Assembly (NCBI GenBank): GCA_902522915.1
Contig: CABYXQ010000010.1
Coordinates: forward strand, 1 to 34,589
Source of the DNA: an uncultured Pelagibacteraceae bacterium
GTDB taxonomy: Bacteria; Pseudomonadota; Alphaproteobacteria; Pelagibacterales; Pelagibacteraceae
DNA length: 34,589 bases
Reading direction: 5' to 3'
In this document: positions 3,129 through 34,589 of the stretch, one piece after another
Layout of the letters: every line of letters starts with the position of its first letter
Numbering within the stretch: the stretch's first letter is position 1
Notes under the pieces: model-generated
The model's database searches: none
What the model was told of the DNA's origin: nothing
Seen by the model: the letters and a program-made list of their open reading frames with translations, nothing else
Translations under genes and position numbers: made by a program

Positions 3129-4367
3129 ATGAAAATAACAAAAATAATATTAAGTTTTGTTTCTGCATTAGCAATTTTATTATCTTCATCAGTCACATCT
3201 TTTGCAAAAGTTGTGGGCGATAAGATAATTTTAGGATCTGCTATTTCACTAACTGGTAAATACTCTTCAAATGGTGTTCATACACAAAACGGTTACAATA
3301 TGGCTGTTGATAGAATTAATAGCATGGGTGGAGTAAAAGTTGGTGGAAAAACTTATAAGTTTGAAATCATTTATTATGATGATGAGTCGAACCCAAAAAG
3401 AGCAGCACAGCTTGCAGAAAGATTAATCTCACAAGATGGTGTTGAGTTTATGCTTGGCCCATATAGCTCAGGATTAACGAAAGCAATAGCGCCAGTAACT
3501 GAAAAATATGGTGTACCAATGGTTGAGGCGAATGGTGCTTCTAGATCTTTGTTTACTAAAGGTTACAAATATCTATTTGCAGTTTTAGCTCCAGCTAATT
3601 TATATCTAGATGTTGCAATTAGAACAGCAGTAGAGTTAAATGGTGGTAAGGGTGTTAGAATTGCCCAAGCATTTGAACAAGATGCTTTTTCACAAGACGT
3701 TAGATTAGGTATTTTAGATGCAGCTAAGGAAACTGGATCTGAAATCATAATCGATGATAAACTACCAAAAGAACTTAATGATATGGCTGCTACATTAGTT
3801 AAAGTTAAACAAATGAAGCCAGATGTTTTAGTTGTATCAGGTCATACAAAAGGAGCATTAACAGCTATTAGACAAATTGCTGAAATGAAAGTAGATGTTC
3901 CAATGTTGGCAATGACACATTGCGATGCTGCGAAATTATCAAAACAACATGGTAAAAATTCACAGTATGCTCTTTGTGCTTCTCAATGGCATAAAACGTT
4001 AACATATAAAGATGATTTCTTTAAAGATGGAATGACTTATGCGGCAGACTTTACAAATGAGTTTGGTTATGATCCGCCATACCAAGCAGCTGAGTCTTCA
4101 GCAGCATTATTAGTTTTTAAAGATGCTTTTGAAAGAGCCAATTCTTTTGATCAAAAGAAAGTAAGAGATGCTCTAGCAGCAACTAACATGCAAACATTTT
4201 ATGGAAATATTAAGTTCGCACCGGGAGGTCAGAATGTTGACAAACCGATGGTACTTTTCCAAGTGATGTGTGATGGTGCTGGGAAATGTGAAAATAAAGT
4301 TGTGGCTCCACTTAAGTGGGCTTCAGCTGAGTTAATACATCCGGTTCCTAAGTGGTCTGAAAGATAA
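3129..4367 (+). CDS. Liv-type ABC transporter substrate-binding protein 1
   Basis: Periplasmic binding protein of the Peripla_BP_6/LivK class for amino acids, amides or related solutes. Residues 1-26 form a signal peptide (basic MKITK, hydrophobic core, cleavage after SFA), followed by IILGSAISLTGKYSS, the typical start of the mature domain, and by YYDDESNP and MLGPYSSG of the ligand cleft. At 412 residues it is slightly longer than LivK. A ribosome site AGGAAA precedes the ATG. A weak promoter (TTGCAA 3065-3070, TTTAAT 3088-3093, 17-bp spacer) may serve it. Permeases and ATPases follow after a hairpin terminator, an arrangement that lets the binding protein be made in excess. Confidence 0.92.
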   Translation: MKITKIILSFVSALAILLSSSVTSFAKVVGDKIILGSAISLTGKYSSNGVHTQNGYNMAVDRINSMGGVKVGGKTYKFEIIYYDDESNPKRAAQLAERLISQDGVEFMLGPYSSGLTKAIAPVTEKYGVPMVEANGASRSLFTKGYKYLFAVLAPANLYLDVAIRTAVELNGGKGVRIAQAFEQDAFSQDVRLGILDAAKETGSEIIIDDKLPKELNDMAATLVKVKQMKPDVLVVSGHTKGALTAIRQIAEMKVDVPMLAMTHCDAAKLSKQHGKNSQYALCASQWHKTLTYKDDFFKDGMTYAADFTNEFGYDPPYQAAESSAALLVFKDAFERANSFDQKKVRDALAATNMQTFYGNIKFAPGGQNVDKPMVLFQVMCDGAGKCENKVVAPLKWASAELIHPVPKWSER

Positions 4368-4380
4368 TATCAAATATGTA

Positions 4381-4412
4381 AAATGCTCCCTAGTAATAGG
4401 GGGCATTTTTAT
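4381..4412 (+). terminator. Intercistronic hairpin terminator/attenuator after the binding protein
   Basis: AAATGCTCCCT and AGGGGGCATTT form an 11-bp arm hairpin with one mismatch around a 6-nt loop, followed by a T run. It sits between the binding-protein gene and livH, so it probably reduces read-through into the permease genes rather than ending the unit. Confidence 0.8.
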
Positions 4413-4452
4413 ATAAAAAGTTTCAAAATTATATAGAAAGCTTCAATAATAT

Positions 4453-5346
4453 ATGGACTTCATGGTTTTTCAATATCCAATGATAAGTGTCCAAGCTTGT
4501 TTGGATGGAATATTATTAGGTATTTTATTTGCACTGATTGCCTACGGAATGGCTCTGCAATGGGGAGTAATGAATATCATAAATATTGCTCAAGGTGATT
4601 TAGTTATTCTTGGTGGATATATTGCATATTTTATGTATCTATATGGAATTCATCCTGCTTGGGGTGTAATCGTTGCACCAATTATAATGTATTTTGTTGG
4701 AGTTGGACTTTATAAATTAGTGATTAATAAAGTAGTTGATAGAGATTTATTCATCTCAATTCTTGCAACATTTGGAATAAGTATTCTTTTTATGCAACTA
4801 ATGAATTTTGCATTTGGTGCAGATGTTGTTTTAGCTAATTCAGGATATGGAACAACTTTTTTATTTGATAGTGCAGTAGTTTTACCAAATTCAAAAATAT
4901 TTTCTGCATTCATAAGTATTTTATTTGCAATTTGTTTAGTAATTTATATGAAAAAATCAAAGTTAGGTCGTGCAATAAGAGCAACTGCACAGAATGCAAG
5001 AGCAGCAAAGATTTTAGGAGTAGATACTGAGAAAGTTTATGCAGCTACATTTGGTATTAACGCAGCTCTTTGTGGTGTAGCAGGTGCATTAATATCTATA
5101 ACGTTTACAATTCACCCTTACATGGGATTACCTTATACAATCAGGTCTTTTATGATCGTTATTGTAGCAGGATTAGGAAATTTGCCTGGAGTAGCATTGT
5201 CTGGAATGGGACTAGGAGTTTTTGAGGAATTTGCTGATTATATTTTAGGAACAGAATTTAGAATTGGAGCTGTATTTTTATTATTAGTTTTAATTTTAGT
5301 TTATAGAAGATTTAAACTATCAAGAAAAAGAGAATATTTAAAATAG
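4453..5346 (+). CDS. livH: Branched-chain amino-acid ABC permease, LivH type (system 1)
   Basis: Inner-membrane permease of the HAAT family. 297 residues with about eight hydrophobic helices; the family marks are ALQWGVMNIINIAQGDLVILGG-like text near residues 35-58, IRATAQNARAAKILGVD in the ATPase-coupling loop and the final VAGLGNLPGVALSG. The gene begins at ATG 4453 without a visible Shine-Dalgarno; an in-frame ATG at 4462 is an alternative. An imperfect 17-nt direct repeat (4418-4434 and 4438-4454) lies just before the start. It abuts livM with no gap. Confidence 0.92.
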   Translation: MDFMVFQYPMISVQACLDGILLGILFALIAYGMALQWGVMNIINIAQGDLVILGGYIAYFMYLYGIHPAWGVIVAPIIMYFVGVGLYKLVINKVVDRDLFISILATFGISILFMQLMNFAFGADVVLANSGYGTTFLFDSAVVLPNSKIFSAFISILFAICLVIYMKKSKLGRAIRATAQNARAAKILGVDTEKVYAATFGINAALCGVAGALISITFTIHPYMGLPYTIRSFMIVIVAGLGNLPGVALSGMGLGVFEEFADYILGTEFRIGAVFLLLVLILVYRRFKLSRKREYLK

Positions 5347-6396
5347 ATGAACAAAAATTTAATTTTATATGTTGCAATATTGTTTTTTGGAATTACAGCA
5401 CCATTTATTTTTCCAGCATTTAAAGTTCAATTATCAATACTTTGCATTTTAATTGTACTAGCTTTAACGTGGAATATTCAAGGTGGGGAAATGGGCTACA
5501 ACACCTTTGGAAACATATTATTTTATGGTTTAGGGATGTATTTATGTGCTTCAGTTCAAGTAGGAATGTTCTTCCCTTTAGCAGAATGGACTGAGAGTGG
5601 TGGAGAAAAAACTTTTGTACATACTCCAGCTCAGTTTTTTCAAGGTATGGCAGTTGGACTGGTAGTGGCTGCAGTGATACCAACTATAGTTGCAGGATTG
5701 ATCGGTTATGCAATTTTAGGATTAAGGGGGCATTATTTTGCGATTTGTACATTAGGTTTAGGAGTTGCAGCTGGAGAGATATCTGGAGGTATAGAAATTA
5801 TTGGAGCAGGACAAGGTTTTACTACACCACCATTTCCTGACGTTGGTGGCTTAGAATCAAGAGGAGAATTTTTCTACTTTTTAAGTTTTGGAGTACTCGT
5901 ATTAACATTTATTGCTGTTAGAGCAATTTATTCAACTAGATTTAAATTAATTCTAAATGCAATTAGAGATAATGAAGACAAAGCTGAAGCGATGGGAATT
6001 CAAACTATGAAATATAAAATCATTGGTTGGATGATATCAGCTTTCTTTTGTGGATTAGCTGGTGGAATTATGGGTGGTTTAGTTGGATACATAGATTCCA
6101 CTGATGTAGCTTTTGATGGAAGAGAAATGGGTGTTTTCATGGTATTGATGGCTATCTTAGGAGGTAAAGGAACTTTGTGGGGACCTGTCATTGGAGCTAC
6201 AGTTTTTCATATTTTTAAAGAGGGTTTTTGGACATTTTTTTTAGGATGGCAGTACGTTGCGCTAGGAGTTCTTATTGTAGTAATAGTAATTTATTTCCCT
6301 GAAGGAATAATGGGATGGTTGAGAGAAAAATTTCCAGAAAGATTTGGCGAAACAATAGATGAAAAAGATAGAAAAGCACAGGTAGAATTGAAATGA
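5347..6396 (+). CDS. livM: Branched-chain amino-acid ABC permease, LivM type (system 1)
   Basis: Second HAAT permease, 349 residues. Visible marks are LALTWNIQGGEMGYNTFGN in the N-terminal helices, GLRGHYFAICTLGLG, the coupling loop LNAIRDNEDKAEAMGI and the C-terminal LGGKGTLWGPVIGA. A loop near residues 75-95 with FPLAEWTESGGEKTF is probably periplasmic. The C-terminus is charged and cytoplasmic. Start follows the livH stop directly, and the stop overlaps the livG start by four bases (ATGA), so translation is coupled. Confidence 0.92.
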   Translation: MNKNLILYVAILFFGITAPFIFPAFKVQLSILCILIVLALTWNIQGGEMGYNTFGNILFYGLGMYLCASVQVGMFFPLAEWTESGGEKTFVHTPAQFFQGMAVGLVVAAVIPTIVAGLIGYAILGLRGHYFAICTLGLGVAAGEISGGIEIIGAGQGFTTPPFPDVGGLESRGEFFYFLSFGVLVLTFIAVRAIYSTRFKLILNAIRDNEDKAEAMGIQTMKYKIIGWMISAFFCGLAGGIMGGLVGYIDSTDVAFDGREMGVFMVLMAILGGKGTLWGPVIGATVFHIFKEGFWTFFLGWQYVALGVLIVVIVIYFPEGIMGWLREKFPERFGETIDEKDRKAQVELK

Positions 6397-7133
6397 GTAT
6401 TTTAGAGGTAAGTAATGTCAGTAAATCATTTGGTGGGGTAAAAGCAAATGTTGATATTTCAATGAATGTTGAGAAAGGAAAAATTGTTGGCTTAATTGGA
6501 CCAAATGGATCAGGTAAAACTACTTTATTTAATTCTATTGTTGGAACTTATCCAATAGATAATGGTTCAATTAAGTTTAATGGTAAAGAAGTATCTGAGT
6601 TACCAGTTCCGATTATTGCAAAACTTGGTTTACTTAGAACTTTTCAGCAAACACGAATTTATGGCAAGTTAAATTGTGTGGAGAATATGCTTATTAGCCA
6701 TAAAGGAAGTGATGCAAGTTTATTTACGATATTTTCAAAAATTCCTAAAGATTTAAACGAAAAAGCAGAGAATTTGTTAAATTTTGTGGGCCTGTATCAA
6801 AAAAGAAAATTAAGAGCAGGAGATCTATCTTTTGGACAACAAAAGTTATTAGAACTTGCTATGGCATTAATGAATGAGCCAGAGATGCTATTACTAGACG
6901 AACCTACAGCAGGAATTAACCCAACATTAATTAATGGAATTATAGATAGGTTAATTAAAGTTAACAAAGATTTTGGAATTACTTTATTAGTAATAGAACA
7001 CAACATGAGAGTTATTATGCAATTAGCTGAAGATATATTTTGTTTAGCTCACGGCAAGATGCTAGCTAATGGATCTCCAGATGAAATAAAAAATGATAAA
7101 CGCGTCGTTGATGCTTATTTAGGAGCGCAATAA
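6393..7133 (+). CDS. livG: Branched-chain amino-acid ABC ATPase, LivG type (system 1)
   Basis: Cytoplasmic ATPase that powers the LivHM pore. 246 residues with Walker A GPNGSGKTT (near residue 36), Q-loop FQQTR, ABC signature LSFGQQKLLEL (the usual LSGGQ reads LSFGQ), Walker B MLLLDEPTAG and switch His in VIEHNMR. The YLGAQ C-terminus is typical of LivG. It overlaps livM upstream by four bases and shares one base with livF downstream. Confidence 0.93.
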   Translation: MSILEVSNVSKSFGGVKANVDISMNVEKGKIVGLIGPNGSGKTTLFNSIVGTYPIDNGSIKFNGKEVSELPVPIIAKLGLLRTFQQTRIYGKLNCVENMLISHKGSDASLFTIFSKIPKDLNEKAENLLNFVGLYQKRKLRAGDLSFGQQKLLELAMALMNEPEMLLLDEPTAGINPTLINGIIDRLIKVNKDFGITLLVIEHNMRVIMQLAEDIFCLAHGKMLANGSPDEIKNDKRVVDAYLGAQ

Positions 7134-7918
7134 TGGCAAATCAATATGAAGTATTAGGAAAAGCACCAACAGCAAATGATTTAAAAAAATTATCTTCAGA
7201 TGATATTCATTTAACTATTAAAGGTTTAAATGCAGGATACGGTAAAATGGAAATTTTACATAACTTTGATTTATTTGTAAACAAAGCACAATCATTGTGT
7301 TTAATTGGACCCAATGGAGCTGGCAAATCTACAATACTTCATTCAATCTATGGATTTACAAATATATTTTCAGGGCAAATAGAAATTGATGGAAAAGAAA
7401 TTACAAATTTAACTCCTGCAGAAAAGCTCAAGTCAGTAGGGATAGCTTATATTCTTCAAGATAATTCTGTTTTTCCAGACATGACTGTTGAAGAAAATTT
7501 ACTAATGGGTGGATATATTAAAGAAAATTCTGATGAGTCATATCAGGAAGCAGAGAGAATTTTTGAAAAATATGAACGACTAAGAAATAGAAGAAATCAA
7601 CCTGCTAAAGTTTTATCTGGAGGTGAGAGAAGATTGTTAGAAATATCTAGAGCATTGGTAATGAAACCTTCTGTTTTATTAGTAGACGAACCTTCAATTG
7701 GATTAGAACCAAGATATATAGATATGGTTTTTGAAATTTTAAGAGATCTTCAACAAAATGAAAAAAAAACAATCATCTTAGTTGAGCAAAATGCAAAAAA
7801 AGGATTAGAATTTTCAGATATAGGATACGTTTTGGTATCGGGACAAACTGCAATTGCAGGTAAAGGAGACGATTTACTTCAAAATCCTGACGTTGGTAGA
7901 CTGTTCCTAGGCGGATAA
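7133..7918 (+). CDS. livF: Branched-chain amino-acid ABC ATPase, LivF type (system 1)
   Basis: Second ATPase of the importer. 261 residues: Walker A GPNGAGKST, signature LSGGERRLLEI, Walker B VLLVDEPSIGL and the switch region ILVEQNAKKGLE, closing with FLGG. The core normally begins near residue 1 in LivF, but here about 28 extra residues (MANQYEVLGKAPTANDLKKL and on) precede the first strand HLTIKGLNAGYG. That extension is odd and may be a docking element. The gene overlaps livG and azlC by one base each, so all are one transcript. Confidence 0.92.
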   Translation: MANQYEVLGKAPTANDLKKLSSDDIHLTIKGLNAGYGKMEILHNFDLFVNKAQSLCLIGPNGAGKSTILHSIYGFTNIFSGQIEIDGKEITNLTPAEKLKSVGIAYILQDNSVFPDMTVEENLLMGGYIKENSDESYQEAERIFEKYERLRNRRNQPAKVLSGGERRLLEISRALVMKPSVLLVDEPSIGLEPRYIDMVFEILRDLQQNEKKTIILVEQNAKKGLEFSDIGYVLVSGQTAIAGKGDDLLQNPDVGRLFLGG

Positions 7919-8622
7919 TGATCAATAAAAGTTTTTTTTTTAAAGGATATAAATCTATTTTTACTCATGACAGTCCAGCGATAGCTCTTACTTGTTGCTT
8001 TATAGCTATTGGTGCTCTTTTTAAAAATTTAGGTTTCAATATTCAAGAAAGTATTTTTTCAACTGTTTTAACTTATGCTTTACCGGGTTCATTGGTGATG
8101 GCTGAGTCTATGTTAATTGGAGCTTCTTTATTAAATATTTTTTTAGCTGTTTGGTTCGTTAATGCACGACTTTATCCTATGGCTGTGTCTTTGTTTCCTT
8201 TAATGATGCATAAAAGTCAACCTAAGTGGAAATATTATTTTTCTTGTCATTTTATTGCTGTTTCTGCCTGGTTAATCATGAAAAGTAATTATAAAAAAAT
8301 TCCAAAAGAGCATAGGATTGATTATTGGATTGGTATTGGAAGTGCAACAGTAACTGTATCAGTCATTGGAACAGTTGTAGGATTTTCATTCTCAGATTAT
8401 TTAAATAAAGATATGATGATGGGATTGGCAATTCTTAATCCAGTTTATTTTTTATGTATGATGGTTGGAGCGTCAAAAACTATACCAGTAACGTTATCAG
8501 TTCTGCTTGGAATAATATTGGGACCAATAATCTATTTATTTTCACCTGAATGGTCAATTTTAATGGCAGGTGTTATTGGAGGAACTATTGCTTATTTAGT
8601 TGGAGAGCATAGTGTCAGCTAA
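7918..8622 (+). CDS. azlC: AzlC-family branched-chain amino-acid exporter, large subunit
   Basis: Inner-membrane protein of 234 residues with about seven hydrophobic segments. Family features are the region SPAIALTCCFIAIGALF, the segment TYALPGSLVMAESMLIGAS (AzlC members have a conserved small/Pro motif here) and WFVNARLYPMAVSLFP. With AzlD it forms a two-part exporter known for branched-chain amino acids and their analogues. It begins on the last base of livF and overlaps azlD. An importer and an exporter of similar substrates in one operon suggests control of the internal amino-acid pool. Confidence 0.85.
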   Translation: MINKSFFFKGYKSIFTHDSPAIALTCCFIAIGALFKNLGFNIQESIFSTVLTYALPGSLVMAESMLIGASLLNIFLAVWFVNARLYPMAVSLFPLMMHKSQPKWKYYFSCHFIAVSAWLIMKSNYKKIPKEHRIDYWIGIGSATVTVSVIGTVVGFSFSDYLNKDMMMGLAILNPVYFLCMMVGASKTIPVTLSVLLGIILGPIIYLFSPEWSILMAGVIGGTIAYLVGEHSVS

Positions 8623-8935
8623 TATTGTTTATGCAATTCTAGTTACGTCCCTAGCAACATTTTTGTCTAGGTTTTTGGGTGTTATTACATCCCAAGGTAT
8701 AAAAGAATCATCTAAACTTTTTAAATGGTTTAATTGTTTGGCTTATGCAACTTTAGCAGCATTAATTGCAAGGACTATAATTTTTCCTGCTGGCATTCTA
8801 ATTGATGCCAGTTATTCCAGTAGATTAATTGTTGTATTATTATCTTTGTTTGTATTTTTTATTTCAAAAAAAAACTTTGTTTATCCAACAATTTTTTCAG
8901 CTATTTGTATGGCAATTATTAATAATTATGTTTAA
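8612..8935 (+). CDS. azlD: AzlD-family exporter small subunit
   Basis: Partner of AzlC, 107 residues and four hydrophobic segments when started at the GTG at 8612 (begins MSANIVYAILVTSLATF). A TTG at 8600 would add four residues; GTG fits the family length better. The segment FLSRFLGVI and the C-terminal VYPTIFSAICMAIINN are typical. The start overlaps the azlC end by 11 bases, so translation is coupled. About 40 AT-rich bases separate it from the next gene. Confidence 0.82.
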   Translation: MSANIVYAILVTSLATFLSRFLGVITSQGIKESSKLFKWFNCLAYATLAALIARTIIFPAGILIDASYSSRLIVVLLSLFVFFISKKNFVYPTIFSAICMAIINNYV

Positions 8936-10693: not shown

Positions 10694-11482
10694 ATGTCTG
10701 AAAATATTTTAAAAATAAATAATTTATCAAAATACTTTGGTGGTTTAGCAGCTGTGTCTAATTGTTCTTTAAATGTCAAAAGAGGAACTATAACTGGCAT
10801 CATTGGACCAAATGGATCTGGTAAAACTACTTTATTTAATTTGATTGCTGGTAATTTAAAATCTTCTAGCGGGGTAGTATTTTTTGATGAAGAGAATATT
10901 ACCGATGTTCCTTCTTATGAATTATTTTCAAAAGGGTTACTTAGAACTTTTCAAATTGCACATGAATTTACAAATTTATCAGTTTTGGAAAATTTAATGA
11001 TGGTTCCAGGAAATCAGTCTGGTGAAAAATTAATGCAAGCGTTACTCAAACCAAAATTAGTAGCTGAAGAAGAAACTATATTAAAAGAAAAAGCAAAAGA
11101 AGTTGTAGATTTTTTAAATTTAAGTCATTTATCAAACGAATTAGCAGGAAACTTGTCTGGTGGACAAAAAAAATTACTCGAGCTTGGAAGAACTATGATG
11201 GTAGATGCTAAATTAGTACTTCTTGATGAGGTTGGAGCTGGTGTTAATCGTACACTTCTTAAAGATCTTGGAACTGCAATAGAAAAGTTAAATAAAGAAA
11301 AAGGTTATACATTTTGCATGATAGAGCATGATATGGATTTTATTGGAAGATTATGTGATCCAGTGATTGTTATGTCAGAAGGCTCAGTTTTATTTGAAGG
11401 ATCTGTTGAAGATGCGAAAAAAGATGAGAGGGTAATTGAAAGTTATTTAGGTAGAGGTTCAAAAATTAAGGATGTTGTCTAA
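10694..11482 (+). CDS. livG: Branched-chain amino-acid type ABC ATPase, LivG type (system 2)
   Basis: 262 residues with Walker A GPNGSGKTT, Q-loop FQIAHE, signature LSGGQKKLLEL, Walker B KLVLLDEVGAG and the switch histidine in MIEHDMDF. The residue after the catalytic glutamate is valine (DEV) in place of the near-invariant proline (DEP); some LivG/UrtD-like ATPases of marine alphaproteobacteria may share this. System 2 has the gene order G-F-H-M, unlike system 1 (H-M-G-F). Stop and livF2 start share one base. Confidence 0.92.
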   Translation: MSENILKINNLSKYFGGLAAVSNCSLNVKRGTITGIIGPNGSGKTTLFNLIAGNLKSSSGVVFFDEENITDVPSYELFSKGLLRTFQIAHEFTNLSVLENLMMVPGNQSGEKLMQALLKPKLVAEEETILKEKAKEVVDFLNLSHLSNELAGNLSGGQKKLLELGRTMMVDAKLVLLDEVGAGVNRTLLKDLGTAIEKLNKEKGYTFCMIEHDMDFIGRLCDPVIVMSEGSVLFEGSVEDAKKDERVIESYLGRGSKIKDVV

Positions 11483-12189
11483 TGGCATTTTTTGAAGGTA
11501 ATAGTATGACAGGTGGTTATGGAAATGGTCCAGACATTATTAGTTCCTGTACAGTGAATGTTAATAAAGGTGAGATTGTTTCAATCCTTGGACCTAATGG
11601 AGCAGGCAAATCAACAGCAATGAAAGCGATGTTGGGACTTCTTAATCTAAAATCTGGATCAATCATTATTGACGGTAAAGATATTTCAAAATTATCACCC
11701 CAAGATAGAGTAAAAGAAGGAATTTCATTTGTGCCACAAACAAAAAATGTTTTTTCAGGAATGACAGTTGAAGAAAATTTAGAAATGGGCGCATTTCTTA
11801 TGAGCAATGAAATTAAAGATGTTATAGAAGAAATTTATATTTTATTTCCAATTCTAAAGGAAAAAAGAAACCAAATAGTAGGTGAATTATCAGGTGGACA
11901 AAGACAGCAGGTTGCATTGGGAAGAGCTTTAATGATTAAACCAGCTGTTTTGATGTTAGATGAGCCTACCGCTGGTGTTTCGCCGATTGTTATGGATGAA
12001 TTATTTGACCATATAGTAAAAGTAAAAAAAACCAATGTTGCAATTTTAATGGTAGAACAAAATGCTAAACAAGCTTTAAGTATATCAGATAGAGGTTATG
12101 TCTTAGTTACTGGTGAAAACCGTTATTCAGGTACAGGAAAAGAATTATTAAATGATCCAAGAGTAAGAAGCTCTTTTTTAGGAGGATAG
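11482..12189 (+). CDS. livF: Branched-chain amino-acid type ABC ATPase, LivF type (system 2)
   Basis: 235 residues, the normal LivF length without the N-terminal extension of system 1. Walker A LGPNGAGKST, signature LSGGQRQQVALGRAL, Walker B VLMLDEPTAG, switch region MVEQNAKQAL and the final FLGG are all present. It is coupled to livG2 by a one-base overlap and lies one base before livH2. Confidence 0.93.
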   Translation: MAFFEGNSMTGGYGNGPDIISSCTVNVNKGEIVSILGPNGAGKSTAMKAMLGLLNLKSGSIIIDGKDISKLSPQDRVKEGISFVPQTKNVFSGMTVEENLEMGAFLMSNEIKDVIEEIYILFPILKEKRNQIVGELSGGQRQQVALGRALMIKPAVLMLDEPTAGVSPIVMDELFDHIVKVKKTNVAILMVEQNAKQALSISDRGYVLVTGENRYSGTGKELLNDPRVRSSFLGG

Positions 12190-12190
12190 T

Positions 12191-13201
12191 ATGGATTTTT
12201 TAAATGCTATCATACTTTTATTAAATTATATTTTTGTTCCAGCTTTAGCCTACGGATCACAATTAGCATTAGGTGCAATTTTTGTAACTTTAATTTATGG
12301 AATTTTAAGATTTGCAAATTTTGCAACTGGGGACATGATGTCTTTTGGAACAATGGTTGCAATATTATTCACTTGGTATTTTCAATCTTTAGGGATTTCA
12401 CTAGGTTTATTACCAACGGCGTTAATAGCTATTCCTTTTGCAGTAGTCTTTATGGCTTTGTATATGCTTTTGATAGATAAATTTGTTTTCAAATATTATA
12501 GAGTTCAAAAAAGTCCACCTGTTCAATTAGCGATGGTAAGTATTGGCGTAATGTTTGTAACCCAAGCAGTAGTTAGAATAATAATTGGACCAGCAGATAG
12601 AAGATTTTTTGATGGGCAAAAGTTTATCGTTAAAGCTGGAGAATTTAAGGAAATGACAGGACTAAATGAAGGCCTAGCTATAAAATCAACTCAAGTAATA
12701 ACCGTATTTGTCACTATTGTACTTGTTTCAATATTATTTTGGTTTTTAAACAAAACTAAGACAGGAAAAAGCATGAAAGCTTATTCTGATAATGAAGATT
12801 TGGCACTATTGTCAGGAATTGATCCAAAAAAAATAGTTATGATTACTTGGATAATTGCTGCAATTTTGGCAACAATAGGTGGAGTTTTGTATGGTTTGGA
12901 CAAAAGCTTTAAACCGTTTACTTATTTTAATAACATGCTTCCAATATTTGCAGCCGCAATAGTTGGAGGTATTGGAAATCCATTTGGAGCTTTTTTGGGT
13001 GGCTATGTTATTGCATTTTCAGAGATATTTTTAACTTATGCTTACAAAAAATTTTTTATGTATATTTTACCAGAAAGTATGGAGCCAGAAACATTAGTTC
13101 AATTGCTTTCAACTGATTATAAATTTGCGGTATCATTTACGATATTAGTAATAGTACTATTGTATCGACCTTCTGGAATATTTAAAGGAAAAGTATTGTG
13201 A
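12191..13201 (+). CDS. livH: Branched-chain amino-acid type ABC permease, LivH type (system 2)
   Basis: 336-residue inner-membrane permease. Marks are YGILRFANFATGDMMSFG (LivH: NFAHGEL-like), the coupling loop KAYSDNEDLALLSGIDPKK and the C-terminal IVGGIGNPFGAFLGG. A loop around residues 135-165 (GPADRRFFDGQKF) is longer than in system 1 and probably faces the periplasm. GTG or TTG near the 3' end starts the next gene: livM2 begins four bases before this stop. Confidence 0.92.
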   Translation: MDFLNAIILLLNYIFVPALAYGSQLALGAIFVTLIYGILRFANFATGDMMSFGTMVAILFTWYFQSLGISLGLLPTALIAIPFAVVFMALYMLLIDKFVFKYYRVQKSPPVQLAMVSIGVMFVTQAVVRIIIGPADRRFFDGQKFIVKAGEFKEMTGLNEGLAIKSTQVITVFVTIVLVSILFWFLNKTKTGKSMKAYSDNEDLALLSGIDPKKIVMITWIIAAILATIGGVLYGLDKSFKPFTYFNNMLPIFAAAIVGGIGNPFGAFLGGYVIAFSEIFLTYAYKKFFMYILPESMEPETLVQLLSTDYKFAVSFTILVIVLLYRPSGIFKGKVL

Positions 13202-14568
13202 GAAAAAATCTAAATGTAATTGCTGCTTATAGCATCATGTTAGTTTTGATAATCCTAGTTGGTATTTTTCAATCTTGGAACATTGCATTATCAATATTTA
13301 ATATGTGTTTAATTTCTGCAGTAATGACAATGGGTGCTAACATCCAATGGGGATACGCAGGTTTAATTAACTTTGGAATTATGGGATACACAGCTCTCGG
13401 AGGACTAGCAGCAGTACTGATATCAGTTGATCCTGTTCAAGAAGCTTGGCGTGCTGGGGGCTTTGATGTCTTGATGTGTTTATGGCTAATTATTGCAATG
13501 ATATTTGTTATTCGATTTATTTTAAAAAATTTTGCAAAATCAAAGTTAAGAACCTATGGGATTGCAGGAATTATTATTGCAGGAATTATAATTATTAGAG
13601 TAACAGCTGAACCCGGTATAGAAGCAATCGAAGGAGTCAATCCAGCAAAAACTGGTTTTTTAGGCGGTCTTGGATTGCCAATAGTTTTTTCTTGGATAGT
13701 TGGAGCTTTCTTTGCGGGTGGATTAGCTTTTATAGTTGGAAAAGTAGCTTTAGGCTTAAGAGCCGACTATCTAGCAATTGCAACATTGCTTATATCAGAA
13801 ATTGTTATAGCAATAATTAAACATGAAGATTGGTTAACTAGAGGAGTTAAAAATGTTATAGGCCTTAAAAGACCAGCGCCCTATGAGGTTAATCTTCAAT
13901 CTACAGAATGGTTTATTAATTTAGTTGAAAATTTTAATATAGGAAAATTAAATTTAATTTCTAACTTAGCAGATAGGCAAACTGCACTTAATCAATTAGT
14001 TATAGAAGGTTCATCTGTATTTGTTAAACTTTGTTATTCTGGATTATTTTTAATTGTGGTTATAATACTTTTAATACTTACTCAAAAAGCACTTTATTCA
14101 CCTTGGGGCAGAATGATGAGAGCTATAAGGGACAATGAAGAGGCTGCAAATGCAATGGGAAAAAATGTTGTTAAGCAACATTTATTAATTTTCATATTAG
14201 GATCTGCAATTGTAGGAATAGCTGGAGCAATGCTAGTAACTCAAGATGGTCTGTTTACACCAGGAAGTTATAGACCGATGAGATATACATTTCTTATTTG
14301 GGTTATGGTAATTGTTGGAGGAAGTGGTAATAATTTTGGTGCTATTTTAGGTGGATTTGCTGTCTGGTTTTTATGGATAGAGGCTGCTCCTATGGCATTA
14401 TTCATGATAAACATGTTTACAGCTGGAATGCCAGATACCCATGCTTTGAAAATTCATTTAATTGAAAGTGTTCCATATTTTAGATATTTAATGATGGGTC
14501 TTGGACTTTTATTAATTATGAGGTATCGACCAAAAGGTATACTTCCCGAAAAAATAGAAATAAAATAA
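13198..14568 (+). CDS. livM: Branched-chain amino-acid type ABC permease, LivM type (system 2), enlarged
   Basis: 456 residues, about 100 more than system 1 LivM, starting at GTG 13198 and overlapping livH2 by four bases. Core motifs: GANIQWGYAGLINFGIMGY, VALGLRADYLAIATLL, coupling loop RAIRDNEEAANAMGKN and VGGSGNNFGAILGG. Extra material includes a hydrophobic pair around residues 100-135 and a hydrophilic loop near residues 215-265 (after IIKHEDWLTRGVKNVIGLKR). The loop is probably periplasmic and may contact the binding protein encoded at 15857-17047. Confidence 0.9.
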   Translation: MRKNLNVIAAYSIMLVLIILVGIFQSWNIALSIFNMCLISAVMTMGANIQWGYAGLINFGIMGYTALGGLAAVLISVDPVQEAWRAGGFDVLMCLWLIIAMIFVIRFILKNFAKSKLRTYGIAGIIIAGIIIIRVTAEPGIEAIEGVNPAKTGFLGGLGLPIVFSWIVGAFFAGGLAFIVGKVALGLRADYLAIATLLISEIVIAIIKHEDWLTRGVKNVIGLKRPAPYEVNLQSTEWFINLVENFNIGKLNLISNLADRQTALNQLVIEGSSVFVKLCYSGLFLIVVIILLILTQKALYSPWGRMMRAIRDNEEAANAMGKNVVKQHLLIFILGSAIVGIAGAMLVTQDGLFTPGSYRPMRYTFLIWVMVIVGGSGNNFGAILGGFAVWFLWIEAAPMALFMINMFTAGMPDTHALKIHLIESVPYFRYLMMGLGLLLIMRYRPKGILPEKIEIK

Positions 14569-27809: not shown

Positions 27810-28448
27810 TTATTTTATTTCTGAGAGTATCTGATCTGATAAATTTTTAATTTCTTCAACTGCATTACCTTTTTTTTGTTTTTCTACCGCTGTTTTACCT
27901 TCGCCCATAGAAGAAGTATAAATTTGTCGATTTCCAATTATTGTTTTAGTTGAAGAAAGATCAAGACTTTTTATAAAATCTTTTGTTTTTTCAATAAGTT
28001 TTGATCTCTGACTCGATCTATTTATTTGTACTAGAATTTTTTTATTCGCTTTTTTTGCTATATCAACTATTGCCCCTGTTGCCCAAAAATCTACATGTGA
28101 TGCTGCCATCGGTATTAAAACTAAATCTGCAGCTTCAATTGAAGGTCTCGCATCTGATTCAATTTTTGGAGGAGTATCAATAATTACAATATCATTATCA
28201 TTTTTTAAGGTTTTAGACTCGTATTGAGCTCCCCATAAGCTAGCAGTTTTAAATGTAAGATTTTCACTAGAAACTTTTTTTTCAGTTCGTATCATAAACC
28301 ATTTTCCAAGACTTCCTTGAGGATCTGTATCAATAATAGCTACTTTTAAATTATGATATTTTATAAATGCTAAAGCAAGATGAACGGCAAGTGTTGTTTT
28401 GCCAGTCCCTCCTTTTTGCTGAGAAATAGTTATTACCTTAGAAAGCAT
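27810..28448 (-). CDS. Orphan ParA-like Walker ATPase
   Basis: 212 residues of the ParA/MinD class. Deviant Walker A KGGTGKTT (residues 12-19), Walker A' IIDTDPQGSLGKW, and Walker B VIIDTPPK are intact. It is short and lacks the N-terminal DNA-binding domain of plasmid ParA; no parB gene or parS site is seen nearby, so a chromosome-partition role is not supported. TATAAT at 28462-28467 (minus strand) is a likely -10, and a perfect palindrome TTAGCGCTAA (28448-28457) abuts the start codon and may be an operator. It heads a row of metabolic genes, with a two-base gap to the thioesterase. Confidence 0.87.
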   Translation of the reverse strand: MLSKVITISQQKGGTGKTTLAVHLALAFIKYHNLKVAIIDTDPQGSLGKWFMIRTEKKVSSENLTFKTASLWGAQYESKTLKNDNDIVIIDTPPKIESDARPSIEAADLVLIPMAASHVDFWATGAIVDIAKKANKKILVQINRSSQRSKLIEKTKDFIKSLDLSSTKTIIGNRQIYTSSMGEGKTAVEKQKKGNAVEEIKNLSDQILSEIK

Positions 28449-28692: not shown

Positions 28693-29397
28693 ATGAACAA
28701 ATTATTATTACCCCAAGACGTTGTTGGGGGATCTTTTTGGTTAATTTCGGTTGCAATGATAGGTGCAGCGATATTTTTCTTTCTTGAAAGAGGACGGCTG
28801 GCTCCAAAATGGGGGACGGTAATGAATTTGGTTGGTGTAATTGCCCTAATGTCATCGATACACTACTTCTATGCTAAAAATTTATGGGTTTTAAATGGTC
28901 AAGCACCAACGGCTCTTCGATATATCGATTGGCTGCTAACTTTTCCTCTTACAATTCTAACTTTTTATGTAATGCTTAAGTCAGTTACGGATATTAAGCG
29001 TGGAATGTTCTGGAGATTGTTAGTTGGGACATTAGTTTGGGTTGTTGCTCAGCTTTTAGGTGCTTATGGATACATGAGTGTAACTCTTGGGTTCCTAGTA
29101 GGTATTGTTGGATGGCTTTATATAATTGGAGAACTTTATATGGGAGATGCAGGACGAGCTAATGCATCTTGTAATAATGAGCGTGTACAAATGGCTTTTT
29201 TTGCAAATAGACTAATAATTACAATAGGTTTTTCGATTTATCATATTGGATATTTTATAGAGCACTTAGCAGGAGGAGCCAATATTAATAGTTTAAACAT
29301 AATTTATAATTTAGCTGACATATTAAATAAAGTTATTTTTGGAATGATAATTTACAGTGCAGCTTTAGAAGACACAAAGAAAGGTAATCAGAATTAA
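28693..29397 (+). CDS. Divergent proteorhodopsin-family microbial rhodopsin
   Basis: Seven-helix retinal protein of 234 residues with no cleavable signal peptide. Conserved: H57 (PR H75), R76, the proton acceptor D79 in RYIDWLLT (PR D97), T83 (T101), counter-ion D209 and the Schiff-base lysine K213 in NLADILNKVIFG (K231). Unusual: the proton-donor position (PR E108) is T90 in FPLTILTFYV; the colour-tuning position 105 is T87, neither Leu nor Gln; and helix F reads GFSIYHIGYF, with F180 and H184 where the family has Trp and Pro. It should bind retinal, but fast proton pumping is doubtful; a slow pump, sensor or other role is possible. No retinal-synthesis genes are near. It begins an operon with an SPFH protein. 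Confidence 0.92.
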   Translation: MNKLLLPQDVVGGSFWLISVAMIGAAIFFFLERGRLAPKWGTVMNLVGVIALMSSIHYFYAKNLWVLNGQAPTALRYIDWLLTFPLTILTFYVMLKSVTDIKRGMFWRLLVGTLVWVVAQLLGAYGYMSVTLGFLVGIVGWLYIIGELYMGDAGRANASCNNERVQMAFFANRLIITIGFSIYHIGYFIEHLAGGANINSLNIIYNLADILNKVIFGMIIYSAALEDTKKGNQN

Positions 29398-31405: not shown

Positions 31406-31795
31406 ATGAGTAGTGATTTAAATAGTTGGGCAAAAAAGTACGAAGAACTTACAAATAGTGATGAAACTATTGCCGCAATGGCAAAATATTATTCATGCTC
31501 ATTTATGTTTGATATGGAAAAAGCAAAAGTCATTATCGAAATGCACGATGGTAAAGTAAAAAATATTAATACTAACCCAGGTCCATTAGACCCATATGAC
31601 TTTGCATTAAGAGCTTCTGCAAATACCTGGAAAGAATTTAGTCAACCTATGCCAAAACCTATGTATCACGGTATATGGTCAGCAAGTTTTAGAAAAGATT
31701 TAAAAATAGAGGGCAATCATTTAATTTTAATGAAAAATTTAAGAAATTTTACTGTTCAATTTGAATTATTAAGAAAATCAGGAGTACCAGTTTAA
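31406..31795 (+). CDS. Small SCP2-like protein of unknown function
   Basis: 129 residues, soluble, no signal peptide. The strand-helix pattern FMFDMEKAKVIIEMHDGKVK, DPYDFALRASANTWKEF and the closing IEGNHLILMKNLRNFTVQF resembles a sterol-carrier-protein-2 fold (strand with D/G-K turn, "DF-L-S...W", C-terminal strand). I am not certain of the family. It lies 14 bases after the SPFH gene and 33 before the alpha/beta hydrolase, inside the amidase-like operon; it may bind a lipid or small hydrophobic ligand. Confidence 0.5.
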   Translation: MSSDLNSWAKKYEELTNSDETIAAMAKYYSCSFMFDMEKAKVIIEMHDGKVKNINTNPGPLDPYDFALRASANTWKEFSQPMPKPMYHGIWSASFRKDLKIEGNHLILMKNLRNFTVQFELLRKSGVPV

Positions 31796-31828: not shown

Positions 31829-32683
31829 ATGGTAAAGCATCACAGTGTAGTAGGTCGTTATGTTACTATTGAAGTAGATGATTGCGAATATAAAGTTTTT
31901 TATCTTCAAAATGGAAAAGGTATACCATTAATATGCCAACACACAGCTGGTTGTCACAATCATCAATGGAGAGGACTTCTTGAAGATGAGGAAATTATAA
32001 AAAATTATAATGTAATTGCATATGATTTACCTAGACATGGAAAATCAGACCCTCCACACAATAAAGAATTTTGGAAAGAAGAATATAAACTAACTGCAGA
32101 CCATTATTGCAATTTTATAGTTAAATTATGTGAAGCTTTAGACTTAAAAAATCCTATTTTTATGGGATCTTCTTTTGGAGGAAATGTAGCTTTGCAATTA
32201 GCTCTTCGCCATCCTAATAAATTTAGAGCTGTAATTCCAGTTGAAGCAGCTGACCATGCGCCAGGTTTTTATTTAGATTGGTGGAGACATCCACATGCTA
32301 ATGCAGCACAAGTTTGTGGAAGTGGTACGTGGGATTTAATGGCACCTCAATCACCTGAAAGAGATAGATGGTTAACATGGCATTATTACACTCAAGGCTC
32401 TGAGGCATTTAAAGGAGACTTATATTTTTATTCAGTTGATCATGATTTAAGAAATGAATTGAAGAATATTGATGGACACAAATGTCCAGTAATTATGATG
32501 ACAGGAACTTATGATTATTTGACACCACCAGAAGCAACCGAAAATACAGCAAGACAAATTAAAGGTGGAGTTTATATAGAAATGCCAGATATAGGGCATT
32601 TTCCAATGAGTGAAAATCACGAGTTATTTAGAGTTTATTTATTAGAAGCATTAAAAATAATTCAAGAAAGGACCAATAAGTAA
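31829..32683 (+). CDS. Alpha/beta hydrolase in the formamidase-like cluster
   Basis: 284 residues. Catalytic triad S115 in FMGSSFGGNVALQLA, D229 in MTGTYDYLTPP and H257 in PDIGHFPMSEN; oxyanion-side HTAGCHNHQW near residue 38. AYDLPRHGKSDPP is the typical strand-4 loop of epoxide hydrolase/haloperoxidase-like members. A clear ribosome site (GAAGGAG) precedes the ATG by seven bases. Its place directly before the two dimethylformamidase-like subunits suggests that it acts on the same compound, perhaps an ester or amide precursor. Confidence 0.87.
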   Translation: MVKHHSVVGRYVTIEVDDCEYKVFYLQNGKGIPLICQHTAGCHNHQWRGLLEDEEIIKNYNVIAYDLPRHGKSDPPHNKEFWKEEYKLTADHYCNFIVKLCEALDLKNPIFMGSSFGGNVALQLALRHPNKFRAVIPVEAADHAPGFYLDWWRHPHANAAQVCGSGTWDLMAPQSPERDRWLTWHYYTQGSEAFKGDLYFYSVDHDLRNELKNIDGHKCPVIMMTGTYDYLTPPEATENTARQIKGGVYIEMPDIGHFPMSENHELFRVYLLEALKIIQERTNK

Positions 32684-32703: not shown

Positions 32704-33123
32704 ATGGAAAAAGATAAAACAGGAGTTCAACTTAATCTTGGTCACACAAGCACCGATGACTATATTACTGAAAAATATGTTTTGCCATTATTAAGAGATG
32801 AAAAAATGAGAAATAAATTGATCGAGGAGCATAGAGCTACTCCAGTAGGAAGGGCACCACAACCTCATAAAGGCCAGCCAATGGTTGAGCATAGCAAGGA
32901 ACTTCAAATCGTTCTTGATAAACTTAGAAGACAGCCTATGGCAGTTAAAAAATATGTAACAGTATGTAAAAAAGATTTTGAAGATTATAGAATAGGAATA
33001 GTCACTGGTGTAAGAGGTGATCCAGTTGAAATTCTAGAAGAATCTTTTTCTTCTGAAGAAGCTGTCGAGCATGCAATTTTTTTAAAAAGAATTTTAGATC
33101 TTTTAGAAAGACATGGACAATGA
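32704..33123 (+). CDS. N,N-dimethylformamidase small-subunit-like protein
   Basis: 139 residues. The C-terminal half, with LRRQPMAVKKYVTVCK, FEDYRIGIVTGVRGDPVEIL and EEAVEHAIFLKRILDLLERH, follows the pattern of the small (alpha) subunit of N,N-dimethylformamidase as I recall it: R-x-Q-P, then a D/A-YRI strand, then an EEA-x-HA-x-FL-x-RI helix. The length (about 130) and the position directly before a large-subunit homologue support this. The N-terminal 50 residues differ more. A good ribosome site GGGAGGT precedes the ATG. The small subunit has no catalytic residues in known enzymes and serves assembly. Confidence 0.72.
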   Translation: MEKDKTGVQLNLGHTSTDDYITEKYVLPLLRDEKMRNKLIEEHRATPVGRAPQPHKGQPMVEHSKELQIVLDKLRRQPMAVKKYVTVCKKDFEDYRIGIVTGVRGDPVEILEESFSSEEAVEHAIFLKRILDLLERHGQ

Positions 33124-33145: not shown

Positions 33146-34589
33146 ATGCTGAGAATTACTGGTTATAGCGATAAGTATACATCTTTTCCTGGAGAAGAAA
33201 TTAAATTTTATGTTAACTCTGAAAAAAATGAAAATTATGAGGTTCAAATTGTAAGATTAATTCATGGAGATACAAATCCTGAAGGTCCTGGATACAAAGA
33301 AGAAGAGATAGGTGCTGAGTGTAATAGAAATTATCAAGGAAAAAATCAAAAAATCCATGGTGGCTCTTATATTGTAATACCTCAAGACGAAAGATTAAAC
33401 ACAACAAGTTTTACTCTACAGGCATATATATTCCCCACAACACCAGACAAAGGTAAGCAAGGAATACTAACAAAGTGGAATGAAAAAACGCAAAGTGGTT
33501 ATGGGTTATTTATAGACGAAAATAGCTGTTTATCAGTTATGATTGGAGATGGAGGGGGACAAACAACATCAGTTTCAAGTGAAAAGAAATTGATGAGAAA
33601 AGTTTGGTATTTGGTGGCAGCAACTTATGATGCTGAAACAGGAAAATTAAAACTGTATCAAGAACCTTGTGTTACACCTACTAATGGTGGACTAGGTATG
33701 TCGTTGCTACATCCTGCAGATGAAACAACAGCTTATGTTGAGTCTATCAGCAATTTAAGACCACGAGCAAATGACGCTCCTTTTTTAATGGCCGCTAGTG
33801 CATTAAATGATAGATCAGGAAGACATATATTTGGAGGACATTACAAAGAAGCATTTAGTCCTATTGAATTACCAGAGCAAACATTAACTTACAATGGCAA
33901 AATAGATAGGCCAAGACTTAGTAAAAAAGCTTTATCAAAATCAGAGATAGAGTCATTAGCTAGAGGTTTTGGCGGATGTACCTCAGAATTAAGATCTGAA
34001 GTTATAGGGGCTTGGGATTTTCATGCGAACATTACAAAAAATATGGCTTCTACTTTAATTATTGACATGACATCTAATCATCTTAATGGCTTTATTGTAA
34101 ATTTACCATGTAGAGCTATGACAGGATACAATTGGACTGCAGATGAAATGGTATTCCATCATAAGCCAGAAGAATATGGTGCTATTCATTTTCATGATGA
34201 TGATATTGATGATGCAAGATGGGATGTAGACTTTGTTTATAAAGTACCTGATAAAATTAGAAGTGGAGTTTATGCAGCAAGATTGAGGATAAATGGTGAG
34301 GACTCAGCAGAAACAGAGGATTTTATTCCTTTTGTAATTAAACCACCTAAAGGCAAAACTAATTCAGATCTTTTATTTGTTTTACCAACAAATAGTTACA
34401 TAGCTTATTCAAATGATAATTTAGGCACAAATTCAGTTGTGGCTCAATTGTTGGCTGGAAAAGTACCAGTTATGTCAGCTTCAGATTTGTATTTAAATGA
34501 ACACAGAGAATATGGTCTATCAACCTATTCTCAACATTCAGATGGAAGTGGTGTAGCAATTTCATCAAGGCTAAGACCTATTTTGAATA
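33146..34589 (+). CDS. N,N-dimethylformamidase large-subunit-like protein, cut by window end
   Basis: ATG 33146 opens a frame with no stop to the last base: 481 codons of a protein usually about 760 long. An N-terminal strand-rich segment is followed by a LamG/concanavalin-like domain (residues 88-300: TTSFTLQAYIFPT, LTKWNEKTQSGYGLFID), then the family core with GAWDFHANI, RAMTGYNW, EYGAIHFHDDDIDDA and PTNSYIAYSND (Y418, Y421). DMFase is an iron amidohydrolase with tyrosine and glutamate ligands; tyrosines in PTNSYIAYS or GLSTYSQHSDGSG are candidates, and the expected glutamate lies past the window. The family splits formyl or N-alkyl amides to a carboxylate and an amine. Confidence 0.85.
   Translation, partial: MLRITGYSDKYTSFPGEEIKFYVNSEKNENYEVQIVRLIHGDTNPEGPGYKEEEIGAECNRNYQGKNQKIHGGSYIVIPQDERLNTTSFTLQAYIFPTTPDKGKQGILTKWNEKTQSGYGLFIDENSCLSVMIGDGGGQTTSVSSEKKLMRKVWYLVAATYDAETGKLKLYQEPCVTPTNGGLGMSLLHPADETTAYVESISNLRPRANDAPFLMAASALNDRSGRHIFGGHYKEAFSPIELPEQTLTYNGKIDRPRLSKKALSKSEIESLARGFGGCTSELRSEVIGAWDFHANITKNMASTLIIDMTSNHLNGFIVNLPCRAMTGYNWTADEMVFHHKPEEYGAIHFHDDDIDDARWDVDFVYKVPDKIRSGVYAARLRINGEDSAETEDFIPFVIKPPKGKTNSDLLFVLPTNSYIAYSNDNLGTNSVVAQLLAGKVPVMSASDLYLNEHREYGLSTYSQHSDGSGVAISSRLRPILN

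Follow-up and report, generated by a model that had tools for sequence, protein, structure and literature searches.

A Pelagibacterales flotillin-associated rhodopsin with a fixed, altered chromophore pocket that most likely holds no retinal

Does every proteorhodopsin homologue of a SAR11-type bacterium work with light? The question is raised by a stretch of 34,589 nucleotides from an uncultured Pelagibacteraceae bacterium (contig CABYXQ010000010.1 of assembly GCA_902522915.1; hereafter the window), which carries on its plus strand a 234-residue proteorhodopsin (PR) homologue running from ATG to TAA. An earlier note, made from the letters of the window alone, had described the protein as a second, non-canonical rhodopsin of a SAR11-like lineage, and had predicted a slow photocycle and a histidine beside the retinal that might change colour or relay protons. 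The first of these descriptions was borne out, as the genome also encodes a DTE-Q PR at C42:2639-3313 (locus L159). This ordinary PR has Val, Gln, Glu, Met, Gly, Trp, and Pro at the sites numbered 84, 87, 90, 116, 120, 180, and 184 in the window protein, to which it is 45% identical. The photochemical predictions are taken up below. The features of the locus are collected in Table 1.

Table 1. Coordinates of the rhodopsin gene, its key codons, and its neighbours in the window (FAR, flotillin-associated rhodopsin; BR, bacteriorhodopsin; counts of FARs refer to the Pelagibacterales set)
Feature	Coordinates	Strand	Evidence or conservation
ParA-family partition ATPase, divergent, across 244-base spacer	27810..28448	-	NF041546, 185.1 bits (cut-off 180); 43/48 loci
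FAR gene, DTT-T type, 234 aa	28693..29397	+	ORF, Pfam, PDB, identity to AG-390 SAGs
Asp79 codon, counter-ion/acceptor site (BR D85)	28927..28929	+	D in 43/45 FARs, E in 2/45 (L042, L069)
Phe84 codon (BR T90 site; H84 in PsFAR)	28942..28944	+	F in 45/45 FARs, V in 32/32 PRs
Thr87 codon, tuning site (BR L93)	28951..28953	+	T in 39/45 FARs, S in 3, Q in 2, I in 1
Thr90 codon, donor site (BR D96)	28960..28962	+	T in 45/45 FARs, E in 32/32 PRs
Trp116 codon (BR M118 site)	29038..29040	+	W in 45/45 FARs, M in 32/32 PRs
Gln120 codon (BR G122 site; E120 in PsFAR)	29050..29052	+	Q in 45/45 FARs, G in 32/32 PRs
Phe180 codon (BR W182 site)	29230..29232	+	F in 45/45 FARs, W in 32/32 PRs
His184 codon (BR P186 site)	29242..29244	+	H in 45/45 FARs, P in 32/32 PRs
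Lys213 codon, Schiff-base lysine site (BR K216)	29329..29331	+	K in 45/45 FARs
Flotillin, 659 aa	29412..31391	+	Flot PF15975 9.2e-29, Band_7 5.7e-10; 14 bases past FAR stop codon
orf129, possible SCP2-like (lipid/sterol carrier)	31406..31795	+	SCP2 PF02036 16.9 bits, below cut-off of 21.3; 44/48 loci
Alpha/beta hydrolase	31829..32683	+	Abhydrolase_1 8.9e-22; 44/48 loci
orf139, conserved neighbour, no family match	32704..33123	+	
DMFA2_C + Laminin_G_3 protein (N,N-dimethylformamidase beta-like), cut at window end	33146..34588	+	

The protein matched the Pfam family Bac_rhodopsin (PF01036) with 97.6 bits against a cut-off of 24.6. A search of the PDB placed two entries of a flotillin-associated rhodopsin (FAR) on top, 9r21 (E value of 1.3e-86) and 9r23 (1e-85), with the next match at 4.2e-58. 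When genome contigs were scanned, the protein was found at 100% identity in AG-390-P19, at 98% in AG-390-L03, and at 94% in SCGC AAA288-N07 (our locus L075). Haro-Moreno et al. (2023; PMC10308929), who defined the FArhodopsins, used AG-390-L03 as their reference SAG. Olson et al. (2018; PMC5864233) name AAA288-N07 as carrying the DTT-T type. Because of these two matches, we assign the gene to a family that is already known: it was described in 2018 and again in 2023, and structures of a relative followed in 2025. The protein is a Pelagibacterales flotillin-associated rhodopsin (FArhodopsin) of the DTT-T type, a PR paralogue encoded in a known FAR cluster. With the FArhodopsins of PMC10308929 it shares the order, the DTT motif, the tuning Thr, a short N-terminus, a same-strand flotillin gene (16 nucleotides downstream in that account) and an ordinary PR elsewhere in the genome. 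No meaningful difference was found from AG-390-L03 as the text of PMC10308929 describes it, and none from the SAR11 DTT-T putative proteorhodopsin of deep ALOHA water as presented in the text of PMC5864233.

The alignment of the FAR protein with PRs and BR is free of indels throughout helices C and F. In it, Thr83 and Arg76 correspond to T89 and R82 of BR, and the remaining sites to those given in Table 1; the green proteorhodopsin (GPR) numbers, which we take to be D97, T101, 105, E108, W197, P201, K231, R94, and H75, agree with the alignment offsets. The residues listed in the earlier note (Lys213, Asp79, Arg76, His57, Thr90, Thr87, Phe180, and His184) are as it had stated. We also looked for a shifted alignment that places a Glu or Asp at the donor site or Trp and Pro in helix F, the outcome that the note had named as counting against its assignment, and since no shift restores these residues, the assignment holds.

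To place these residues within the family, a FAR set and a PR set were assembled. The former comprises 45 rows, namely the window gene and 44 of 49 loci (41 distinct sequences; the L033 protein is identical to that of the window), and omits L072 (contig end), L076 (broken frame), L077 and L078 (distant, treated apart below), and L081 (27 residues). The latter comprises 30 rows from 61 genomes searched, being the best 30 loci of a longer list plus L001, minus the window's own match, and was enlarged to 32 by L133 and L134. At GPR position 108, where pumping PRs have a carboxylate donor, the FAR protein has Thr90. The PR-type retinal pocket, with Trp, Pro, Met, and Gly at BR positions 182, 186, 118, and 122, is absent, and Phe, His, Trp, and Gln are found instead. 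What the protein does possess is the FAR combination of a DTT motif (D79, T83, and T90), tuning residue T87, and lysine K213. Arg76, Trp80, Tyr183, Asp209, and His57 are invariant across all 45 FAR rows. The earlier note had missed the changes at Phe84, Trp116, and Gln120, as well as the adjoining flotillin gene.

TAT rhodopsin of SAR11 HIMB114, too, has Thr at the donor site and is the second rhodopsin in its lineage. It was dismissed as a counterpart on its helix C motif, which is Thr-Ala-Thr, the window FAR having Asp79-Thr83-Thr90. The Thr/Phe/His combination for which the earlier note had singled out the protein is present far beyond chance (45/45 FARs, versus Glu/Trp/Pro in 30/30 PRs), but it is not new, being fixed throughout a family that has already been published (PMC10308929).

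Can a protein with such a pocket hold retinal? Olson et al. credited the DTT-T proteins with a retinal pocket (PMC5864233); a retinal-less state was proposed for FArhodopsins in PMC10308929, in which an AlphaFold analysis had four conserved FAR residues clashing with a modelled retinal. When produced in Escherichia coli, DTT-T proteins remained unpigmented and caused no change of pH in the light, even with the N-terminus of a PR added (PMC5864233). As both articles point out (PMC5864233 and PMC10308929), these negative results could stem from misfolding or from the missing flotillin.

Further evidence comes from PsFAR, the protein of the two top PDB entries, for which we found no publication and which is known here from PDB titles and alignments. 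PsFAR has the same family, fold, and numbering at sites 84 and 120 as the window FAR, to which it is 54-55% identical. At sites 57, 84, 87, 90, 116, and 120 it has Phe, His, Gln, Met, Met, and Glu, and it keeps Trp180 and Pro184; the window FAR has His, Phe, Thr, Thr, Trp, and Gln at the first six of these sites and Phe and His at the last two. Entry 9r21 is the wild type, whereas 9r23 is titled as the double mutant H84V/E120G. The mutated sites are those of Phe84 and Gln120 in the window FAR, and the Val and Gly introduced are the residues that PRs have there. The double mutant may have been made to open the pocket. Pro202 of proteoopsin, which lies alongside the ionone ring and serves as a marker of pocket closure (PMC11322631), should by its numbering be the match of His184.

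The best of five AlphaFold2 models (pLDDT of 85, the five spanning 61.5-85.3; pTM of 0.83) resembled 9r23 and 9r21 most closely (Z scores of 33.6 and 33.5; 1.5 Å over 229 residues), followed by PsPR (9r22; 32.3) and by green and blue proteorhodopsin (7b03 and 4kly; 31.2 and 30.4). The model suggests that the FAR protein most likely folds as a normal seven-helix rhodopsin. With 7b03 and 4kly (39-40% identity) it also shares the Lys, Arg, His, and acceptor site, whereas their donor Glu and their pocket Trp, Pro, Met, Gly, and Val are all replaced. A crude sum of pocket residue volumes gave medians of 3066 cubic Å for FARs versus 2916 for PRs. By the same crude sum, HIMB59-like FARs reach 3158, though they keep Trp and Pro, and the FARs of loci L121-L123 come to 2731; filling of the pocket is thus not uniform across the family.

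Because of the contact-site changes, the negative E. coli tests, and the sites chosen in the PsFAR mutant, we prefer a retinal-free state to a slow photocycle or tuning by His. Judged by its residues, the FAR protein is most likely retinal-free, with its chromophore site changed and its pocket filled: Phe84, Thr87, Trp116, Gln120, Phe180, and His184, changed jointly, would fill the space so that no retinal is held. The slow photocycle, colour change, and His relay proposed in the earlier note all presuppose bound retinal and are therefore unsupported if the pocket is retinal-free; apart from the E. coli results, they are weakened by the larger residues at the three further contact sites Phe84, Trp116, and Gln120.

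A case for photochemistry is made by the residues that have stayed. A retinal-binding photoreceptor, or a very slow pump in which the donor Thr slows the photocycle and His184 tunes colour or relays protons, would account for Lys213, Arg76, Trp80, Tyr183, and Asp209 being kept in every FAR row and Asp79 in nearly all, and it is odd to find these residues conserved if a chromophore was never bound. The lower-photic-zone distribution that has been published (PMC10308929) also suits such a role. Retinal could moreover be at hand, because all 11 genomes of the order in which we detected the cluster marker orf129 (see below) have an ordinary PR and 9 of them have a BCD/blh-family gene, although no blh match was found in the window's own genome (73% complete). 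Against this stand the alteration of five contact sites together in all 45 rows, the E. coli proteins described above, and the tuning site, which varies more than any other changed position, unlike the pattern of colour selection. We consider a photochemical role of the FAR protein unlikely.

A pocket that has lost its chromophore might simply be decaying, and the conservation of the gene bears on this. Invariant columns make up 163 of the 234 in the FAR protein. For the pocket we used 22 sites that correspond to pocket positions of BR; 20 of these never vary within FARs, compared with 143 of the 212 other sites (Fisher p = 0.027, uncorrected for relatedness), so the signature is fixed and not drifting. 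The FAR and PR consensus sequences differ at 9/22 pocket sites and at 111/212 sites elsewhere, and the change between the two is therefore not concentrated in the pocket. The median dN/dS was 0.033 for FARs (322 usable of 990 pairs, 668 being dropped as saturated) versus 0.120 for 12 same-genus PRs (65 of 66 pairs), a rough comparison given that the two sets differ in depth. The FAR protein is kept under strong purifying selection, and hence a function is presumably retained. A decaying, pseudogene-like paralogue without function would explain why several functional residues are lost, why freshwater FARs without the Lys exist (PMC10308929), and why the Lys, Asp, and Arg are also gone from one relative beside a flotillin gene (L132); the broken frame in 1 of the 48 loci (L076) could be a sequencing error. 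The low dN/dS, lying below that of the PRs of the genus, the invariant columns, and published transcription (PMC10308929) make such decay extremely improbable.

If the protein is maintained, its neighbourhood may indicate what for. A flotillin gene lies beside FAR in all 48 loci (L033-L080), being truncated at the locus end in four (L042, L046, L055, and L060), and orf129 and the hydrolase gene are missing only where a locus ends inside flotillin. The flotillin of the window is the sole copy found in its genome (73% complete). A sterol-carrier annotation is given to a protein of the FAR cluster in PMC10308929, which fits the sub-threshold SCP2 match of orf129, and transcripts spanning rhodopsin and flotillin have been published in the same article. 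The spacer between the ParA gene and FAR is AT-rich. Elsewhere in the window, positions 3129-8935 and 10694-14568 hold two gene sets for ABC transporters of the branched-chain-amino-acid type, with an azlCD-like pair (7918-8935) after the first of them, all judged from translations.

Among 397 genomes of the order, the cluster marker orf129 was detected in 11, which all belong to the window's own genus, and in 3 of the 151 that are at least 90% complete. The FAR cluster is thus island-like, being absent from most relatives. FAR was seen in 8 of the 11 genomes, each time with the key residues of the window protein; in the other three (G945, G962, and G1103) the contig stops short of its position. 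The ordinary rhodopsin of one FAR-carrying genome (L164, G1075:C19:4259-4939) is of the DTQ-Q type, with Gln as donor and Asn at the His57 site; DTQ-Q is the motif of deep-water SAR11 pumps in Olson et al. (PMC5864233). A tblastn search of phage records with the FAR protein gave no match. Carriage by phage was likewise dismissed after short peptide patterns taken from this protein alone were scanned against viral_contigs, which gave three stretches, none of them related.

Beyond the order, a search baited with orf129 returned mostly weak matches, in 29 of the 385 genomes at class level and in 8 of the 398 at phylum level; eight distant genomes with strong matches were taken further. FAR, flotillin, and orf129 occur together in five of these, G611 carries a degenerate rhodopsin next to a flotillin gene (L132), and no rhodopsin was found in two (G256 and G729). 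In a tree of 31 rows chosen out of 86, the Pelagibacterales FARs are separate from pumping PRs: all 11 of them cluster together with support of 100/99, and this cluster is joined first by the HIMB59-like FARs at 100/98 and then by L077 and L078 at 96/99. Support for the 19 FAR-like rows as a whole is 94/94, just below the level starred by the tool, and L132 and BR are long branches.

The Phe180/His184 pair was seen in the Pelagibacterales set alone and in none of the eight other FAR-like rows. The HIMB59-like FARs (L119 and L120) have the DNI motif, which PMC10308929 assigns to HIMB59, with Phe84, Phe116, and Gly120, and they keep Trp and Pro. Loci L121-L123, from three genomes of 4-4.5 Mb of one genus, have Val84, Met116, Ala120, Trp180, and Pro184, and Gly in place of Trp141. 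With a pocket nearly like that of PRs, they may represent a retinal-binding end of the FAR family. L077 and L078 have His84 and Glu120, like PsFAR. Their FAR clusters are borne by L077:10001-20386 (Hyphomicrobiales MAG OFTM302) and L078:10001-19945 (Chromatiales MAG Ww634), with identities of 61-62% for FAR, 56% for flotillin, 81-84% for orf129, and 87% for the hydrolase; as orf129 and the hydrolase are far more conserved than the rhodopsin, gene transfer or mis-binning is suggested. In L132 (G611:C33:162005-162664), which adjoins a flotillin gene, the Schiff-base Lys is replaced by Arg, the acceptor Asp by Gly, and the Arg by Pro; its genome is of the window's class and listed as 100% complete.

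Gene neighbourhood and published co-transcription hint that FAR would be made together with the adjoining flotillin and might act, independently of light, in membrane microdomains that flotillin organises. There it could scaffold other membrane proteins or partner with them; alternatively, it could be the receptor of a small lipid-like molecule that enters the leftover pocket, in which Lys213, Asp79, and Asp209 are still in place. The occurrence of orf129 without rhodopsin in two of the eight strong-match genomes speaks against a microdomain role. As an overall reading, we nevertheless consider it probable that the protein is a light-independent, retinal-free seven-helix FAR of flotillin microdomains.

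A different use of the same microdomains would leave the light to the ordinary PR. The equivalent of His57 in PR, His75, has a role at the protomer interface. FAR could be a regulatory subunit of mixed complexes with PR in flotillin microdomains, aiding the pump in dim light, a hypothesis stated by the 2023 authors (PMC10308929). All 11 genomes with the cluster marker do have a PR, His57 is kept in 45/45 FARs, and the PsFAR entries have five chains, as do several PR entries. Yet PsFAR has Phe and L123 has Gln at the His57 site, FAR is only 45% identical to the PR of its own genome, and FARs are also mesopelagic (PMC10308929), where blh declines (Olson et al., PMC5864233). We find mixed complexes rather unlikely compared with the light-independent, retinal-free protein favoured above.

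The receptor variant of that favoured reading can be given a more specific form. Retinal-free proteoopsin binds decanoate, its lysine forming a salt bridge with the ligand (PMC11322631). By analogy, the pocket of Pelagibacterales FARs could have been turned into a site for a ligand other than retinal, such as a fatty acid, in which Phe84, Trp116, Gln120, Phe180, and His184 together with Lys213, Asp79, and Asp209 would bind a polar-headed lipid. We put this forward tentatively, as a rather unlikely case. If true, the protein would be a microbial rhodopsin that resembles a chemoreceptor and is coupled both to a flotillin raft and to a possible carrier of the SCP2-like kind, the product of the second gene downstream.

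What is added here to the published account is modest, namely a list of fixed pocket changes and an estimate of selection. The main text of PMC10308929 appears to leave Phe180/His184, Trp116, and Gln120 unnamed, although its Fig. 5 and Table S5 may name them, so that the list may already stand in a figure or supplement of that article. The FAR family is reported to be abundant in dim ocean water (PMC10308929). The present account of its residues singles out five invariant sites, candidates for reversion, that may explain a lack of retinal binding.
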